Below are positions 5,725-59,439 of a DNA stretch of 64,000 nt, piece by piece; within the stretch, counting starts at the first letter, position 1, and every line of letters begins with the position of its first letter. The position numbers were made by a program, and so were the translations under genes. Source of the DNA: Isosphaera pallida ATCC 43644 (GTDB lineage Bacteria > Planctomycetota > Planctomycetia > Isosphaerales > Isosphaeraceae); NCBI RefSeq assembly GCF_000186345.1, contig NC_014962.1, forward strand, positions 1,736,001 to 1,800,000, read 5' to 3'. The notes beneath the pieces are model-generated. The model did no database searches. It saw nothing but the letters and a program-made list of their open reading frames with translations, and was not told where the DNA came from.

Positions 5725-6966
5725 ATGGCGGCCACGACGGCGCGTAAACTGCCCGTCACGGTGCTGTCGGGCTTCCTGGGAGCGGGCAAAACCACCTTGC
5801 TCAACGAAGTGCTGCGCAACCGCGCTGGCATGAAGGTCGCGGTGATTGTCAACGACATGAGCGAAGTCAACATCGACGCTCAACTGATTGAGCAGGGAGG
5901 CGCGGCGCTCTCGCGGACCGAGGAAACCCTGGTTGAGCTCTCCAACGGCTGCATCTGCTGTACCTTACGGGAGGATCTAGTTCGTGAAGTGGCGGCGTTG
6001 GCGGCCCAAGGACGATTCGACTACCTCTTGATTGAATCGACCGGCATTTCTGAACCCCGTCCGGTGGCCGAAACCTTCCTGTTCGAGATCGAAGGGGCGC
6101 GTGCGCTCAAGGATGTGGCCGAACTCGACACCCTGGTGACGGTGGTGGATGGCTACAACTTCCTTCATGATTTCATTGAGGCCGAAGACCTCAAAAGCCG
6201 CGGTCAAGCCGCGAGCGAAAACGACGAGCGGACCGTCGCTGATCTTTTGATTGATCAGATCGAGTACGCCGATGTCGTGATCCTCAACAAAATCGACCTG
6301 ATCAGCCCGACTCAAAAGGCGCGGCTTCGAGGAATTCTTCGGTCGCTCAACCCCCGGGCGCGTCTCATCGAAGCCGAATTTGGTCGGGTTCCTCTCGACG
6401 CGATCCTGAACACGGGTCGATTTGACCTGGAGCGTCTGGTGTTGGAGTCGGGCTGGCGTTTGGCCGCGCGGGGCGAGGTGGTTTCCGAAGCCGAGGAATA
6501 CGGCGTGAGGCATTTCGTGTACCGGGCGCGTCGGCCCTTCCACCCAGCGCGGTTTTGGGCTTGCCTCAACGCCGGATGGCCAGGGGTGATTCGCTCCAAG
6601 GGCTTTTTCTGGCTGGCGAGCCGCCCGGATCGAGTCGGCGTCTGGTCGCAAGCCAGTCGCATTGCTCGGATCGACGCCGGCGGCTTTTGGTGGGCGGCCG
6701 TCCCGCCCGAAGCCCGGCCCGACACTCCAGCGTTCCGCGCTGCTTTGGAACGGCTCTGGGACGAGCATGTGGGCGATTGCCGTCAAGAACTCGTTTTGAT
6801 CGGCGTAGGTCTTGATCCTGTTGAGCTGACTCAACGGCTCGACGCCTGCCTACTCAATGACGAAGAATACCGTCAAGGCCCACCCGCGTGGATTGGCTAC
6901 GACGATCCGTTCCCCGAATGGCCCAACCCGGCCACCCCGTCATCTACTGCGACGAACTTGGCGTGA
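5725..6966 (+). CDS. COG0523 (CobW/P47K) family GTPase, probable metal chaperone
   Basis: G3E-family P-loop GTPase that probably delivers or allocates a metal, most often zinc in this family, using GTP hydrolysis. Near the start are the Walker A motif GFLGAGKTT and the CxCC metal-binding motif (GCICCTLRED). Further motifs are ESTGISEP and NKID, and the second half matches the CobW C-terminal domain. Counting from ATG 5725 gives 413 residues with LPVTVLSGFLGAGKTT close to the N-terminus, as usual. ATG 5665 would add 20 residues; neither start has a good ribosome-binding site. The gene is followed within 80 bases by an exported DUF4198 protein with a His-rich tail, which supports a metal-homeostasis role. 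The metal itself cannot be read from the sequence. Confidence 0.9.
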   Translation: MAATTARKLPVTVLSGFLGAGKTTLLNEVLRNRAGMKVAVIVNDMSEVNIDAQLIEQGGAALSRTEETLVELSNGCICCTLREDLVREVAALAAQGRFDYLLIESTGISEPRPVAETFLFEIEGARALKDVAELDTLVTVVDGYNFLHDFIEAEDLKSRGQAASENDERTVADLLIDQIEYADVVILNKIDLISPTQKARLRGILRSLNPRARLIEAEFGRVPLDAILNTGRFDLERLVLESGWRLAARGEVVSEAEEYGVRHFVYRARRPFHPARFWACLNAGWPGVIRSKGFFWLASRPDRVGVWSQASRIARIDAGGFWWAAVPPEARPDTPAFRAALERLWDEHVGDCRQELVLIGVGLDPVELTQRLDACLLNDEEYRQGPPAWIGYDDPFPEWPNPATPSSTATNLA

Positions 6967-7042
6967 TCGTGTCGCGCCTGGTTCTCCCTCTTCTCATCGC
7001 GTCAGGTCCCTCGAAATCGTTTCGATGGTTTGGAGTCATCCC

Positions 7043-7867
7043 ATGCGTCGATTTCTCAAGGCGTCCGTTTGGGTCGCCCTCATTGGTGTTCTGTCCGTCA
7101 ACCTCGCCGAGGCGCACTCGTTGAGGATCATTGTCTCCTCGACTCACGGCAAACCGGGCACACCGGCAACCGCCTACCTCTCTTGGGGTCACGGTCTCCC
7201 CGTGGACGAACTTTACAACGGCTCGAACCTGGCCCGCTACGAACTCCTAGCCGGAACCCAGGTTGTCGAATCCTGGAATGTCGAGGGTTTGGGATTGCAT
7301 GAACAGGCCCTCAAACTCAAAGACCCAGGAATTTACCAGGTGCGCCTCGTAACCAAGCCGGTGATCTTCAGTACCTTCCGCGGCCCCGACAACAAGAATG
7401 GTTTCGTCCGCGGCGGGCGGGACGCGGTTCCCCAAGGGGCGAAGGATGTCAAGGTGATCAAGAGCGTCACCTTCGCCAAGGCGGTGGTGACTCGCGGCGA
7501 CGTGGAGGATGAGGCGATTCCCGCTTTGGGCGACGACTTCGAGATTGTTCCGATCACCAAGACCGAACATGGCGCGTTCTGCATGGAGGCCCCGATCACC
7601 TTCCAGGTTCGGCTTCGCGGCGCTCCGGTGGCGGGCGTGAAGGTGTCGGCGGCCCATACCGGCCTGAACTCCGACGGCTCCCCCGCGCTGACCGAACAAA
7701 CCGACGCTCAGGGGCTCGTCAAGCTTAAGCTCGATGACCCGGGAACCTGGGTGCTTGAGGCCTATTATGAGGCTCCCGCCTCCGCGGAGTCTCAAGGATC
7801 GTACGACGTGGAATCATTCTCCGCCGCCTTGACCCTCGGCGTCACCGAACACGACCACGATCATTGA
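7043..7867 (+). CDS. Exported DUF4198-type protein, possible metal-uptake component
   Basis: 274-residue periplasmic or membrane-associated protein. ATG 7043 has GGAG with a 7-base spacer and gives a clean signal peptide (MRRFLKASVWVALIGVLSVNLAEA) before mature HSLRI. The body resembles DUF4198 proteins, which are often linked to nickel or cobalt uptake: an Ig-like beta domain with GxPATAYLSWGHGLPVDEL, a middle region, and a C-terminal domain containing FQVRLRGAPVAGVKVSAAHTG. The tail TEHDHDH could bind metal. The longer frame reaching back to 6857 overlaps the GTPase and is not needed. With the COG0523 gene 76 bases upstream, the pair looks like a GTPase plus exported metal-handling protein. 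Confidence 0.8.
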   Translation: MRRFLKASVWVALIGVLSVNLAEAHSLRIIVSSTHGKPGTPATAYLSWGHGLPVDELYNGSNLARYELLAGTQVVESWNVEGLGLHEQALKLKDPGIYQVRLVTKPVIFSTFRGPDNKNGFVRGGRDAVPQGAKDVKVIKSVTFAKAVVTRGDVEDEAIPALGDDFEIVPITKTEHGAFCMEAPITFQVRLRGAPVAGVKVSAAHTGLNSDGSPALTEQTDAQGLVKLKLDDPGTWVLEAYYEAPASAESQGSYDVESFSAALTLGVTEHDHDH

Positions 7868-55173: not shown

Positions 55174-56766
55174 TTATTCCGACTCGTCGCGGTTCAGACG
55201 GGGCGCAGGCACGTCGGCCACGGCGTCACGGGGCAGGGCGGCAACGAAGCGCCTGAGAGTCAACTCCAAACGCTCGACCACCTCGGGGTGGCTTTCGGCC
55301 ACATTGTCGCGTTCCCAGCGGTCCTCGGGCTTGCGGTAAAGCTGGGTGGGACGTGGCGGACCATCGGCGTCCGGATCGATCGGCAGGATCAGCAACCAGT
55401 CGCGGGTCCGAATGGCGTATTCTTCGGCGTCCATTCCCATGCAGGCGAATTCTCGAACCGAATGGATCCGTCCTCTAGCCAGTGGGAGCAGGTCTTTGCC
55501 GTGCAATGGGTCCACTTGGTCGCGGATTTCGCTTCGCGGAGCGTCCCAATCCGCGTCCCCAATCGAGTTGGACCGGGTCGCGTCTTTGGGGGCGGCTTCC
55601 CCATCCTCGTCCAAAGCGCCCGGAGGCCGGATGCCTAAGGCCGACAGAATCGTAGGGGCGAGATCGACCGCCTGAGTCAGCGCGTCCACCCTTCGACCCG
55701 CCTCGGCCGCGCCCGGCAAGCGGAGAATCAACGGGGTGTGGATCAATTCCTCGTGCAACCAGGGCAGGTAACGCCTCACAAAGTCATGTTCGCCCAGTGG
55801 TTCGCCCTGGTCAGCGGTGAAGAGGATCAGACTGTCTTCGGTGCGTCCCGTGGATTCCAAGGTCTCGAAAAGGCGTCCCAGACAATGGTCGAGGAAAGCG
55901 ACGGCCCCGGCGTAGGTTTTGCGGAGTCGGAGCAGTTCGGCGTCGGAGATTACGTCGCCGACCCAACCGGCAGGCACGTCGATGAGGGCGCGGATTTCCT
56001 CGGGCGATTCGTCGAACGAAGGGTCATCCACCAGGTCACCCTCCTGGTCGGCTCGGAAATCCTCAGGGTCGAGGGTAACGTAACGGTCACGGAAGGCCTC
56101 AGGCGCGTCCCAGGGACCATGAGGCGCGAAAAGGTCGATCCACAACAGGAACGGGTCAGGGCGTGGTCCCAGGCGCTCCAAACATTGGCAAGCCGCCGCC
56201 ACGGTTCGCGCAACGGGGAACCCTTCGGGGCGGCGTTCAGGGTTGAACACCGCTCGATTGCGTAAGAATTGCTCCCAGCGGGTCTTCCAGAGCGAGCGGT
56301 CAGGGTCGTCGCGTTCCGGTAGACGGAACCCCGGTTCGTCCTTGAGCTTGGGTTCAACCCCGCCCAAACGGGGATCGCCGGGCGGGATGAACGGGTCGTA
56401 ACCTGCGCCCCGGATGAACCGCACCTCGTCGAAGCCCCGAGTCCAACCGCCGGTGGCCGGATCGCGTAGAAACGGGTTGTCGGTGACCAACATACTCATC
56501 ACGCCCTGGTCCCGGAGCAGATCGCCCAGCATGGTTTCTTCGGCGAGCGGCGCGGTCCACCCCTTGTCGGGGTCGGGGAAGCTGTAGCGCCCGGTCCACC
56601 AGGAGCGACGGGTGGGAATCGTGGTGGCGTTCTCAAGGAAGTGGTGATCGAAGACCACCCCTTGGGCCGCCAAACGATCGAGGTTGGGGGTGTGAATCCA
56701 CGGATTGCCATAGGTTCCCAGATAACCCAGGTGCAACCCGTTGCAAGCGATGACCACGACGTTCAT
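55174..56766 (-). CDS. Sulfatase-family protein lacking catalytic residues
   Basis: 530-residue protein with the overall sulfatase/alkaline phosphatase superfamily layout: YLGTYGNPWIHTPNLDRLAAQGVVFDHHF, the active-site region ending PTRRSWWTGRY, and LILFTADQGEPLGEHDFV. Key residues are missing. The N-terminal Asp-Asp metal pair is absent (no Asp before residue 30; the aligned position reads ACNG). The formylglycine Cys/Ser of C/S-x-P-x-R is Thr49 (TIPTR), and the late D-H/N is D-Q. No signal peptide is seen, unlike most planctomycete sulfatases. It may be inactive, regulatory, or a Thr-nucleophile enzyme of the same superfamily. It sits alone between gyrA/DUF2721 and the permease gene. Confidence 0.85.
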   Translation of the reverse strand: MNVVVIACNGLHLGYLGTYGNPWIHTPNLDRLAAQGVVFDHHFLENATTIPTRRSWWTGRYSFPDPDKGWTAPLAEETMLGDLLRDQGVMSMLVTDNPFLRDPATGGWTRGFDEVRFIRGAGYDPFIPPGDPRLGGVEPKLKDEPGFRLPERDDPDRSLWKTRWEQFLRNRAVFNPERRPEGFPVARTVAAACQCLERLGPRPDPFLLWIDLFAPHGPWDAPEAFRDRYVTLDPEDFRADQEGDLVDDPSFDESPEEIRALIDVPAGWVGDVISDAELLRLRKTYAGAVAFLDHCLGRLFETLESTGRTEDSLILFTADQGEPLGEHDFVRRYLPWLHEELIHTPLILRLPGAAEAGRRVDALTQAVDLAPTILSALGIRPPGALDEDGEAAPKDATRSNSIGDADWDAPRSEIRDQVDPLHGKDLLPLARGRIHSVREFACMGMDAEEYAIRTRDWLLILPIDPDADGPPRPTQLYRKPEDRWERDNVAESHPEVVERLELTLRRFVAALPRDAVADVPAPRLNRDESE

Positions 56767-56910: not shown

Positions 56911-58914
56911 TCAGGCCACCAAGAGCAAGCCGACGGATTCGGGCAGTTGTTCGGCGACGCCGGAGATCACATCTCCCTTCATCGCCTTCCAGAGGGTTCC
57001 GCGGCGGGTTGCGCCGAGCATGAGCAGGTCGGCCCCGTGGGTCACGGCCATGTCGAGAATGGCGTCGGGGATGTCGCGGGCCACGCCGTAAAGCAGGCGG
57101 ATCGGCACGCCTTCCTTCTTGGCCTGTTCGCGCACCTGCTCGAAGAGCTTCAGGGCGTCCTCGTCCTCGTCGAGTTTGGGCGGTTCCACCAGGCCCATTG
57201 GCGTGACCGCCAGGTGCCTGAGGAAGAGGATCTGCAATTCGGCGTGACGGTTCTTCGCTTCCTCAAACGCGAACTTGAGCAATCGGGGATTGCCCTGAGT
57301 GGCCACCATCACCCGGGCTTTGGGTTTGTAGCCACCGGGCACCATCATCAACCGCTTGGGGCGGGTCTCTAAAGGCTTGCCGTCGGGACCCAGTTCCACC
57401 TCGACGCGGCGGGAACGATACGCCAGAATCTCGGGGCGAAACTGTTGGACCTTGTAGCTGGCCCCCGCCAAAACACAGACCAGAACCGCCGAAACCGCGA
57501 AGCCGCCCAAGGTGTCGTGAAAGGCGATTTCGACGAAGAGAACCGCGAGAGTCAACACGACTCCCGAAATCACATAGCCGCGGCGGGTCAACTGTCCCAA
57601 CGGCACGGCGGGGTGAATCGCCATCGTGCCCAGACGCGCTGAGAGACCCGCGGCCAAGACCACCAGGGCGAAACTGCGGGCGTCCGGCTTGTCAAAGACA
57701 ATTGTGATCTCGATGGCGATGAGCAACAACGTCACCCCGGCCATGAGGATCCGCTCGCCCCGGCGGATGTCCAGCGCCCGATTGGTGGCGATCGAACCGA
57801 GGTTGATCCCAATCGCTCCCACGATGCCGATGGCGTACAGGCCGCCTAACGACTCGACATAGGGAAACACCACCACCACAACGGCTGGCACCACCGCTGC
57901 GATCACCAGCGGCAGCTTGGGCATCCCGAACCGGTTGAGCCGTCCAAACGCCTCGGGCAATTCTCGGTCGCGCGAAAGCATGAACAGCACGGAGACCAAC
58001 GCCCCGACCGCGGTGTTGACCGCCGAGAACAGCAACGCCGCAAAACAGACCCCGCTGGCCGCAGCGAACGCCGGTCCCACGTAAGTCTCGGCGATGACCT
58101 TGATCATGTCGCCGGTATGAGCCGGCACGAGACCACCGGTCTCGGGATCGAGCCGATACAGCACGTCGTCGGCCAAGGTGAGCATGGCCGCGCAGAGGAT
58201 CAGGTTCAGCAGCACGATCTCGGTCATCACCGGCAGGATCGCCCGCTTGGCGGTTCGGCCCACTGGCTGAACCATCACCCCGGTCATGTTGGCGATCGCC
58301 TCGACGCCCGAGAGGGCCAAAATGATCTCGGTAAAGCCGACCCACGCCCGCCCCGGTCCTTCCTTAAAGGGCGATTCGACCACCATGTTGCCCAGATAAG
58401 GCAGGCAGGCCACGCCAATAATCAGCGTGAACACCACCGTCGCCATCGCCACGATCATCGCCGCCGTACCGGTCTTGGTCGGCCCCAGCACGTTGACCGC
58501 CCCAATCGCCAAGATGCCTAAGGCCGCTAAGGCCGCATCCACCGGCAGAATCCCCAGGATCGTGTAGTCTTTGATCCCGAGATAATGAAACGCCTCCAAA
58601 CATGAGAGGCTGGCGGTCACCACGTAATCAGCACAGAGCAGCAGGCCGCCGAAGACAGCAAGCAGCTGCGAGCGCTGTTGGGCGGAGGAATAAACGCCGC
58701 CGCCGTCGGGAAACAAGCGACAGGCAATGGTGTAGCACCAGCCCACGGCAATCAGCACCAGGCTCATCGCCGCGACCATCCAAAACGACGCCCGCCCGTT
58801 GAAGGCGAACGCCAAACCCAACACATAGAGGCGACTGGTCCCCCAGTCGCCAAACAAGATCGGCCCGGCGTGATACCACTTCAGTTCGCGGGGACGCTCT
58901 CCGAATCCGCTCAT
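56911..58914 (-). CDS. APC-type amino-acid permease fused to a universal-stress (UspA) domain
   Basis: About 667 residues. The first 480 residues form an APC-superfamily transporter with about 12 hydrophobic helices: GPILFGDWGTSRLYVLGLAFAF, GGVYSSAQQRSQLLAVFGGLL, FTEIILALSGVEAIANMTGV and AALLFSAVNTAVGALVSVLFMLSRD. The C-terminal 150 residues are a UspA domain: ARVMVATQGNPRLLKFAFEEA, AELQILFLRHLAV and the nucleotide-loop-like GADLLMLGATRRGTLWKAMKGDV. ATG 58914 is chosen because MSGFGERPRELKWYHAGP starts the protein; the frame upstream to 59322 is low-complexity. Similar permease-Usp fusions exist in several bacteria; the Usp domain may gate transport with ATP or stress signals. Confidence 0.88.
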   Translation of the reverse strand: MSGFGERPRELKWYHAGPILFGDWGTSRLYVLGLAFAFNGRASFWMVAAMSLVLIAVGWCYTIACRLFPDGGGVYSSAQQRSQLLAVFGGLLLCADYVVTASLSCLEAFHYLGIKDYTILGILPVDAALAALGILAIGAVNVLGPTKTGTAAMIVAMATVVFTLIIGVACLPYLGNMVVESPFKEGPGRAWVGFTEIILALSGVEAIANMTGVMVQPVGRTAKRAILPVMTEIVLLNLILCAAMLTLADDVLYRLDPETGGLVPAHTGDMIKVIAETYVGPAFAAASGVCFAALLFSAVNTAVGALVSVLFMLSRDRELPEAFGRLNRFGMPKLPLVIAAVVPAVVVVVFPYVESLGGLYAIGIVGAIGINLGSIATNRALDIRRGERILMAGVTLLLIAIEITIVFDKPDARSFALVVLAAGLSARLGTMAIHPAVPLGQLTRRGYVISGVVLTLAVLFVEIAFHDTLGGFAVSAVLVCVLAGASYKVQQFRPEILAYRSRRVEVELGPDGKPLETRPKRLMMVPGGYKPKARVMVATQGNPRLLKFAFEEAKNRHAELQILFLRHLAVTPMGLVEPPKLDEDEDALKLFEQVREQAKKEGVPIRLLYGVARDIPDAILDMAVTHGADLLMLGATRRGTLWKAMKGDVISGVAEQLPESVGLLLVA

Positions 58915-59439
58915 GACCTCGGGACTCCCCGTCTCCGAGCATTCCCGCCGCTTAATTGCGTTCGGCTCACGTTGATCGCGCCAATCATCCGGGTCGTGCG
59001 GCGTCGTTTGGGCTGAGCGATCGGTTCGGTTCGCTGCGCGCCCCCAGAACGAAGACCGGAGCAGTGAACCACCCGCCCCTTGCCCGTCCCACCCCGCCCG
59101 TGACGCCAAGAGGAACGGTGATGAGAATGGGGCTTGATTACACCAACCCTCCAACCCCCCCGTCAACCCGTCGTCCGACCACGTTCCCTCTTGACTGCCG
59201 GCCCTCCGCGTGGAACCATGATTTTTTAACAATCGTGGACGATTCCTCCTTCCGTAGGCCTCATCGGTTTGGTCCCGGCTTGCGGCGCGGTCCAAACATG
59301 TTGAGACATGTTGAGCCGCCACCCCCAGTCACCCATTCTTTCCCACTCTCCCCGATTGCGTCACACCCCACCGATTGTTTGGCCTCCCTCCCTTGCAGAC
59401 CATTCCACGCCACTCCATCCCACGCCAGGAGTTCATCTC
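58915..59439. other. Divergent intergenic region
   Basis: 525 bases between the permease-Usp gene (minus) and an oxidoreductase gene (plus). No convincing gene. TTGACT at 59191-59196 could be a -35 element for the plus-strand gene, but no good -10 follows at the right distance. Confidence 0.4.

Follow-up and report, generated by a model that had tools for sequence, protein, structure and literature searches.

The alkaline phosphatase superfamily is well known, as are pseudo-members of enzyme families. In PMC5870055, Asp14, Asp296 and His297 are the expected metal ligands of the choline sulfatase SmCS, His201-Lys309 is its general-acid pair, and its active site is said to match that of SpAS1 completely. 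The SulfAtlas paper (PMC5066984) names His and Gln as the commonest letters replacing Asn318 in sulfatases, reports Thr at the formylglycine site in 30 of the 59 sequences of the PF00884 seed, and points out that oxidation of Thr would yield a ketone, not formylglycine. In the open PubMed Central literature, mostly judged from listings, we found no published account of a protein of the type that we describe here, P0001 of Isosphaera pallida ATCC 43644. What is unusual about it is that the order of the events that shaped its active site can be read and that their outcome was fixed across a bacterial family.

The window (the whole stretch of DNA analyzed here, 64,000 nucleotides) sits in the 5,472,964-base contig of a 5,529,304-base genome. 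P0001 (Table 1) matches the Pfam Sulfatase profile PF00884 with an E value of 2.5e-36 and a score of 126 bits (cut-off 25), which, together with its predicted fold, places it in that family and in the alkaline phosphatase superfamily. Its NCBIfam matches are all sub-threshold; the best of them, PehA (NF045661), reached 121.7 bits against 900, well short of the equivalog cut-off for PehA (phosphoric/sulfuric ester hydrolase) and phosphonate monoester hydrolases. An AlphaFold2 model was built on a 48-row alignment, A3, comprising 27 Isosphaeraceae rows, 20 relatives and L034, a sequence from a metagenome-assembled genome (MAG) contig labelled Fimbriimonadaceae. The model has a mean pLDDT of 87.8 and a pTM of 0.90. 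In VIA-align, the best among the PDB matches listed was 6hr5 (Z 39.2 over 351 residues, rmsd 2.7); SpAS2 (4upl) aligned over 413 residues (Z 38.7, rmsd 3.2), RlPMH (2vqr) gave Z 34.6 and 4upi gave Z 34.5. Nearly all of the 50 PDB matches listed, with Z scores from 32.8 to 39.2, are sulfatases or phosphonate monoester hydrolases. A profile search with A3 recovered SpAS2 (4upl) at 4e-65 and SpAS1 (4upi) at 7.4e-63. Because the structure matches and the profile matches to SpAS2 and SpAS1 agree, we regard P0001 as a full alkaline-phosphatase-superfamily domain in its predicted fold.

A sequence-only reading of this gene had recorded three flanking sulfatase motifs and the lack of a signal peptide. 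TGRY, HTPNLDRL and GEH are indeed all present. A signal peptide would not fit, since the model places the start of its first beta strand at residue 2 and the reading frame extends just 16 codons upstream of the ATG; the absence of a leader may also be an old trait of the lineage.

Table 1. Features of P0001 and its immediate upstream neighbor in the window, with residue counts. "Relatives" are the 20 non-Isosphaeraceae relatives in A3 plus L034, except where they are given separately; "27" refers to the Isosphaeraceae rows of A3; "covered" refers to the 43-row fixation set (42 Isosphaeraceae genomes, one of them in two pieces), in which rows without coverage at a site are contig-edge fragments.
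Feature	Position in window	Strand	Observation
ORF of sulfatase-fold protein P0001, 530 aa	55174..56766	-	ATG start; PF00884; AlphaFold2 model; SpAS2 Z 38.7
Asn9 codon, metal-ligand Asp position	56740..56742	-	D 21/21 relatives; N 27/27 Isosphaeraceae; N 40/40 covered
Codons of sites 9-10	56737..56742	-	Asn then Gly or Ser in 38/40 covered orthologues
Thr48 codon, invariant Pro exchanged	56623..56625	-	P 21/21 relatives; T 27/27; T 40/40 covered
Thr49 codon, formylglycine Cys/Ser position	56620..56622	-	T 40/40 covered; A3 relatives T 11/20, C 9/20; L034 T
Arg53 codon, (C/T)xPxR motif, kept	56608..56610	-	R 40/41 covered; R 21/21 relatives
Phe99 codon, invariant His exchanged	56470..56472	-	H 21/21 relatives; L/F/M/Y in 27/27 Isosphaeraceae
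Gly122 codon, invariant Glu exchanged	56401..56403	-	G 27/27; G 41/41 covered
His216 codon (PHxP), kept	56119..56121	-	H 40/40 covered; H 21/21 relatives
Gly217 codon, invariant Glu exchanged	56116..56118	-	G 27/27; G 40/40 covered
Asp319 codon, metal-ligand Asp kept	55810..55812	-	D 41/41 covered; D 21/21 relatives
Gln320 codon, metal-ligand His/Asn position	55807..55809	-	H 21/21 relatives; Q 27/27; Q 41/41 covered
Arg332 codon, general-acid Lys position	55771..55773	-	K 21/21 relatives; R 27/27; R 41/41 covered
Upstream ORF	56911..59322	-	C-terminal universal stress domain PF00582, 7.3e-12

Residue roles in P0001 were taken from the SmCS account and were mapped through profile alignments to SpAS1 and SpAS2, in which sites 9, 49, 216, 319, 320 and 332 fall on corresponding residues and Arg332 aligns with the Lys of both proteins. 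This is the kind of alignment that the sequence-only reading had proposed as a check, and it bears out two of that reading's three active-site claims in full: Thr replaces the modifiable Cys or Ser, with TIPTR standing where CxPxR is expected, and Asp-Gln replaces Asp-His/Asn, both without exception in the covered orthologues (Table 1). The third, that the N-terminal Asp pair is absent, is correct for P0001, which has Asn9-Gly10, but overstates the change: the wider clade has Asp-Ser or Asp-Thr here, so a single Asp was lost. The one exception at Arg53 among the covered rows is a His. Site 99 lies near the arylsulfatase KxH segment with a register uncertain by one residue, and since the alignment is out by that one residue we do not equate the ancestral His, residue for residue, with the His that arylsulfatases have beside the nucleophile.

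Set against the described enzyme classes, these residues give a mixed picture. Of the marks of a formylglycine S1 sulfatase, P0001 has the metal-ligand pair Asp-Asn/His/Gln (as Asp319-Gln320) and lacks both the Cys/Ser of (C/S)xPxR (Thr49) and the N-terminal Asp pair. It departs from the phosphonate monoester hydrolase set of formylglycine Cys, metal-site Asp, Asp-His and Lys at Thr49, Asn9, Gln320 and Arg332. With the Thr-nucleophile metallo-esterases of the superfamily it shares the Thr itself, and it differs from them at the metal ligands, where Asn9 and Gln320 occupy the places of Asp9 and the His of Asp-His. Judged by these residues, P0001 is not a formylglycine sulfatase.

Twenty-seven positions of A3 are invariant among the 21 relatives (the 20 and L034). 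Seventeen of them are unchanged throughout the 27 Isosphaeraceae rows and three in 26 of these rows, while seven are wholly different: D9N, P48T, H99 to Leu, Phe, Met or Tyr, E122G, E217G, H320Q and K332R. At each of these seven sites L034 still carries the ancestral letter. The proportion of seven in 27 is a raw count, and conserved sites can also be struck when constraint is relaxed along a single long branch. Six of the seven positions, however, were fixed afterwards within the Isosphaeraceae, site 99 alone continuing to vary, and relaxed constraint does not explain this later invariance. By the roles assigned in the SmCS account, the exchanged set takes in the general-acid Lys as well as two residues of the metal site, and the three acids lost along with the metal-site residues may represent compensation for a departed cation. 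The retained set includes Arg53, Asp96, Arg119, Asp124, His216 and Asp319. As the alignment records it, the new event in the P0001 lineage is this seven-position exchange and neither the Thr nor the Asp-Gln.

Both of the latter features also occur outside this lineage. Relatives gathered with L038, the one match from outside the Isosphaeraceae at E <= 1e-55 in our Planctomycetota sample, as query came from 30 of 294 genomes of the phylum at E <= 1e-40, the window's own genome among them. The 20 relatives in A3 are divided between Thr and Cys at site 49 (Table 1), and all 20 have Ser or Thr after Asp9, as L034 has Thr. L034 carries Thr49 alongside D9 and D319-H320, and the metal ligands are likewise kept in the other Thr-type relatives (L059-L066, L068, L070, L071, L079 and L080). 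Four PF00884 proteins of the window's own genome (L099, L101, L102 and L105) have Thr as well, with Asp-Thr and Asp-His. Taken together, L034 and the Thr-type relatives give an order in which Thr49 is best read, from these sequences, as the older state, the metal-site letters having been lost later. Thr was inherited from relatives with intact metal ligands, and the suggestion that it marks a loss of function in P0001 is not supported. Nor is the same suggestion for Asp-Gln, which also occurs in L095, L096 and L106, PF00884 matches of the window's own genome that have Cys at site 49, and, in alignments, in two sulfatases of the PDB, 5g2v and 7p24.

A tree of 49 rows gathers the nine outgroup sulfatases, seven of them from the window's genome, into one group (100/100). 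Fourteen Isosphaeraceae rows, L034 and L035 are united at 100/100, and L034 falls outside the other 15 at 100/97. The Isosphaeraceae alone reach only 50/87, a consequence of the unsettled placement of L035 with its long branch; of the 46 inner branches, 13 are open. At least three changes are needed to account for Thr and Cys at site 49, although such change counts alone give no direction. In the group containing genus g61, Cys and Thr were exchanged more than once, since the Thr of L079 and L080, both of that genus, is nested within a mostly Cys-type clade.

Several observations were made in passing. L035 (ORF 5890-7335, plus strand, of contig JAIXLE010000147.1, labelled as a Bacteroidales MAG) is a second relative in which erosion has gone much further: it has His at site 9, Pro at site 49, Phe at site 320, an acidic insert and a branch of 2.58; its contig may be misbinned. 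Among the 18 PF00884 matches of the window's genome, L095 and L096 (G000:C2, about 1611613-1614189, minus strand) are adjacent Asp-Gln, Cys-type matches with identical active-site motifs; they look like tandem duplicates, or else like a single locus read in two overlapping frames. Another of the 18, L100 (G000:C2:3577412-3578323, plus strand), contains an in-frame TAA and may be a broken sulfatase gene.

The loss of catalytic letters could by itself hint that the P0001 gene is a decaying pseudogene, a possibility to which we give virtually no credence. We found one copy each in 42 of the 45 Isosphaeraceae genomes searched (match at E <= 1e-80), among them 25 of the 26 with a completeness of 90% or more and a contamination of 5% or less. 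Across 392 sampled Planctomycetota genomes only three carry a match at E <= 1e-55; two of these belong to the Isosphaeraceae, and the third is the source of L038. Its dN/dS in six orthologue pairs is 0.051-0.127, and the neighbor-gene controls gave 0.065 (PIG-L) and 0.141 (cNMP). This single-copy retention and these dN/dS values contradict drift or decay, and the open frame and the confidently predicted fold argue in the same direction. The gene is not decaying; it has exchanged catalytic residues under purifying selection, one of the two marks of a pseudoenzyme, the other of which would be a lack of catalytic activity.

The genes around P0001 offer less guidance. Immediately upstream in the window is the ORF listed in Table 1, whose N-terminal part looks permease-like by eye, although Pfam lists the stress domain only, and whose GTG start is probably placed too early; downstream lie a DUF2721 gene and gyrA. 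We searched 18 Isosphaeraceae contigs (L039-L056) by tblastn, with queries chosen from codon-model gene calls, which miss genes. A PIG-L deacetylase gene lies within ~6 kb downstream in 11 of the 18, a cNMP-binding gene near the target in 10, and a same-strand glucosamine-isomerase-like gene in 10. A gap of at least 1.3 kb separates the target from this cluster and contains long ORFs of doubtful status on the opposite or the same strand (contigs L039 and L045). The cluster is absent from seven of the 18 contigs, and in the window's genome the PIG-L orthologue is ~686 kb from P0001. L034 has a PIG-L gene immediately upstream that scarcely matches the Isosphaeraceae PIG-L (E 0.01). Directly upstream of the target there is a DUF2079 membrane-protein gene in 4 of the 18 contigs, and an acyltransferase gene lies upstream in 5. 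An assignment of function from the neighborhood was rejected, because the cluster and these upstream genes alike are patchy, and because the cluster is separated from the gene and lies far off in P0001's own genome.

We think it rather probable, on the residues exchanged and kept, that P0001 is a cytoplasmic, metal-free, anion-binding pseudoenzyme that was formerly a Thr-nucleophile esterase. An exchange that happened as a set and was then fixed almost throughout the family suggests that a former enzyme took on a binding or sensing role and was not simply broken. Two considerations count against this: Asn and Gln can hold metals weakly, and an equivalent of Gln320 is found in Cys-type sulfatases; moreover, the core of the nucleophilic site (Thr49, Arg53, His216 and Asp319) is kept, which a pure scaffold would not need. 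The same facts sustain the main rival, possible but not likely in our estimation, in which P0001 is an active enzyme of altered chemistry, with Thr49 as nucleophile, Arg332 in place of the Lys, a particular cytoplasmic substrate, and either no metal or one weakly held by Asn9, Asp319 and Gln320. The strictness with which the new residues are fixed, equal to that of catalytic ones, would fit such an enzyme. The rival is at odds with the joint change of D9 and H320 at the metal site, of the general-acid Lys and of His99, and Arg is, by established chemistry, a poor general acid. A version of this idea that we hold to be unlikely is a re-tooling, as a single event after the L034 split on the Isosphaeraceae side, into metal-free esterase or transferase chemistry with Thr as nucleophile, kept since then in nearly all genomes sampled.

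That P0001 is a conventional Thr-type metallo-phosphodiesterase in which the altered residues are neutral variants would agree with its position in the tree beside Thr-type relatives and with the fold that it has in common with phosphonate monoester hydrolases; that all 21 relatives agree at the altered sites, and that no covered Isosphaeraceae row shows a reversion there, makes this very doubtful. We consider it highly improbable that the fold serves as a structural subunit, a protein-protein scaffold with an empty pocket. Conserved WW (56-57), PWL (335-337) and C-terminal PEDRW (480-484) segments, none of which is a sulfatase catalytic motif, would suit a scaffold, but the segments that line the pocket in relatives (around sites 9, 49, 119-124, 216 and 319-332) are among the most conserved, and a surface scaffold would not need that. 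Asn-Gly and Asn-Ser dipeptides are prone to spontaneous deamidation, and deamidation of Asn9, which is nearly always followed by Gly or Ser (Table 1), could slowly restore the Asp and make P0001 self-activating; this is unlikely because H99, E122, E217, H320 and K332 were lost simultaneously.

For the anion-binding pseudoenzyme that we favor, the history would run as follows. The ancestor would have been a Thr-nucleophile, metal-dependent phospho- or sulfo-ester hydrolase with D9, T49, D319-H320 and K332. On the Isosphaeraceae side of the L034 split, one Asp and one His of the metal site were exchanged along with the general-acid Lys, another His, two acids and a Pro, and the new letters were then held fixed. 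Arg53, Arg119, His216 and the new Arg332 remain, together with D96, D124 and D319. The resulting pocket would have lost its divalent metal and ester turnover and would presumably still bind an anionic ligand, phosphorylated or sulfated, which might make P0001 a sensor or a regulatory subunit. The sequence-only reading had offered a choice between a dead scaffold and an altered cytoplasmic enzyme. Much of this survives, in that P0001 is no formylglycine sulfatase, has no leader and has exchanged its metal-site and general-acid residues; "dead" in the sense of drifting does not, given its presence in 42 of 45 genomes and a dN/dS of 0.05-0.13.

The order of events, with Thr first, then the seven-position exchange, and then fixation in a near-ubiquitous single-copy family gene, would make this lineage a natural experiment in which a metallo-esterase fold became a non-catalytic (or differently catalytic) protein, with the unaltered sister L034 as its control. 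A PF00884 match in a planctomycete is not in itself grounds for counting a sulfatase, and Asp-Gln is no test of sulfatase inactivity.

How P0001 stands to known systems can be stated for each in turn. Reportedly, PorX, a response regulator of type IX secretion, carries an alkaline-phosphatase-superfamily effector domain and is a phosphodiesterase. The two are placed side by side by description only, as an analogy for a possible regulatory role: PorX puts a domain of this superfamily in a signalling protein, by fusion to a response regulator, whereas P0001 has no such fusion. The formylglycine S1 sulfatases (SulfAtlas S1) share PF00884, the TGR and GEH motifs and, in 5g2v and 7p24, Asp-Gln with P0001, which lacks their formylglycine Cys/Ser and their Asp pair. 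SpAS1, SpAS2 and the phosphonate monoester hydrolases (RlPMH, BcPMH and SpPMH) are the nearest solved relatives by profile and have the fold in common with P0001; where they use a Cys-derived formylglycine, a metal-site Asp, Asp-His and a catalytic Lys, P0001 has Thr, Asn, Asp-Gln and Arg. The Thr-type PF00884 relatives of other Planctomycetota and L034 have the same nucleophile-site Thr as P0001 and the same R53, D96, R119, D124, H216 and D319, but retain D9, P48, H99, E122, E217, H320 and K332.
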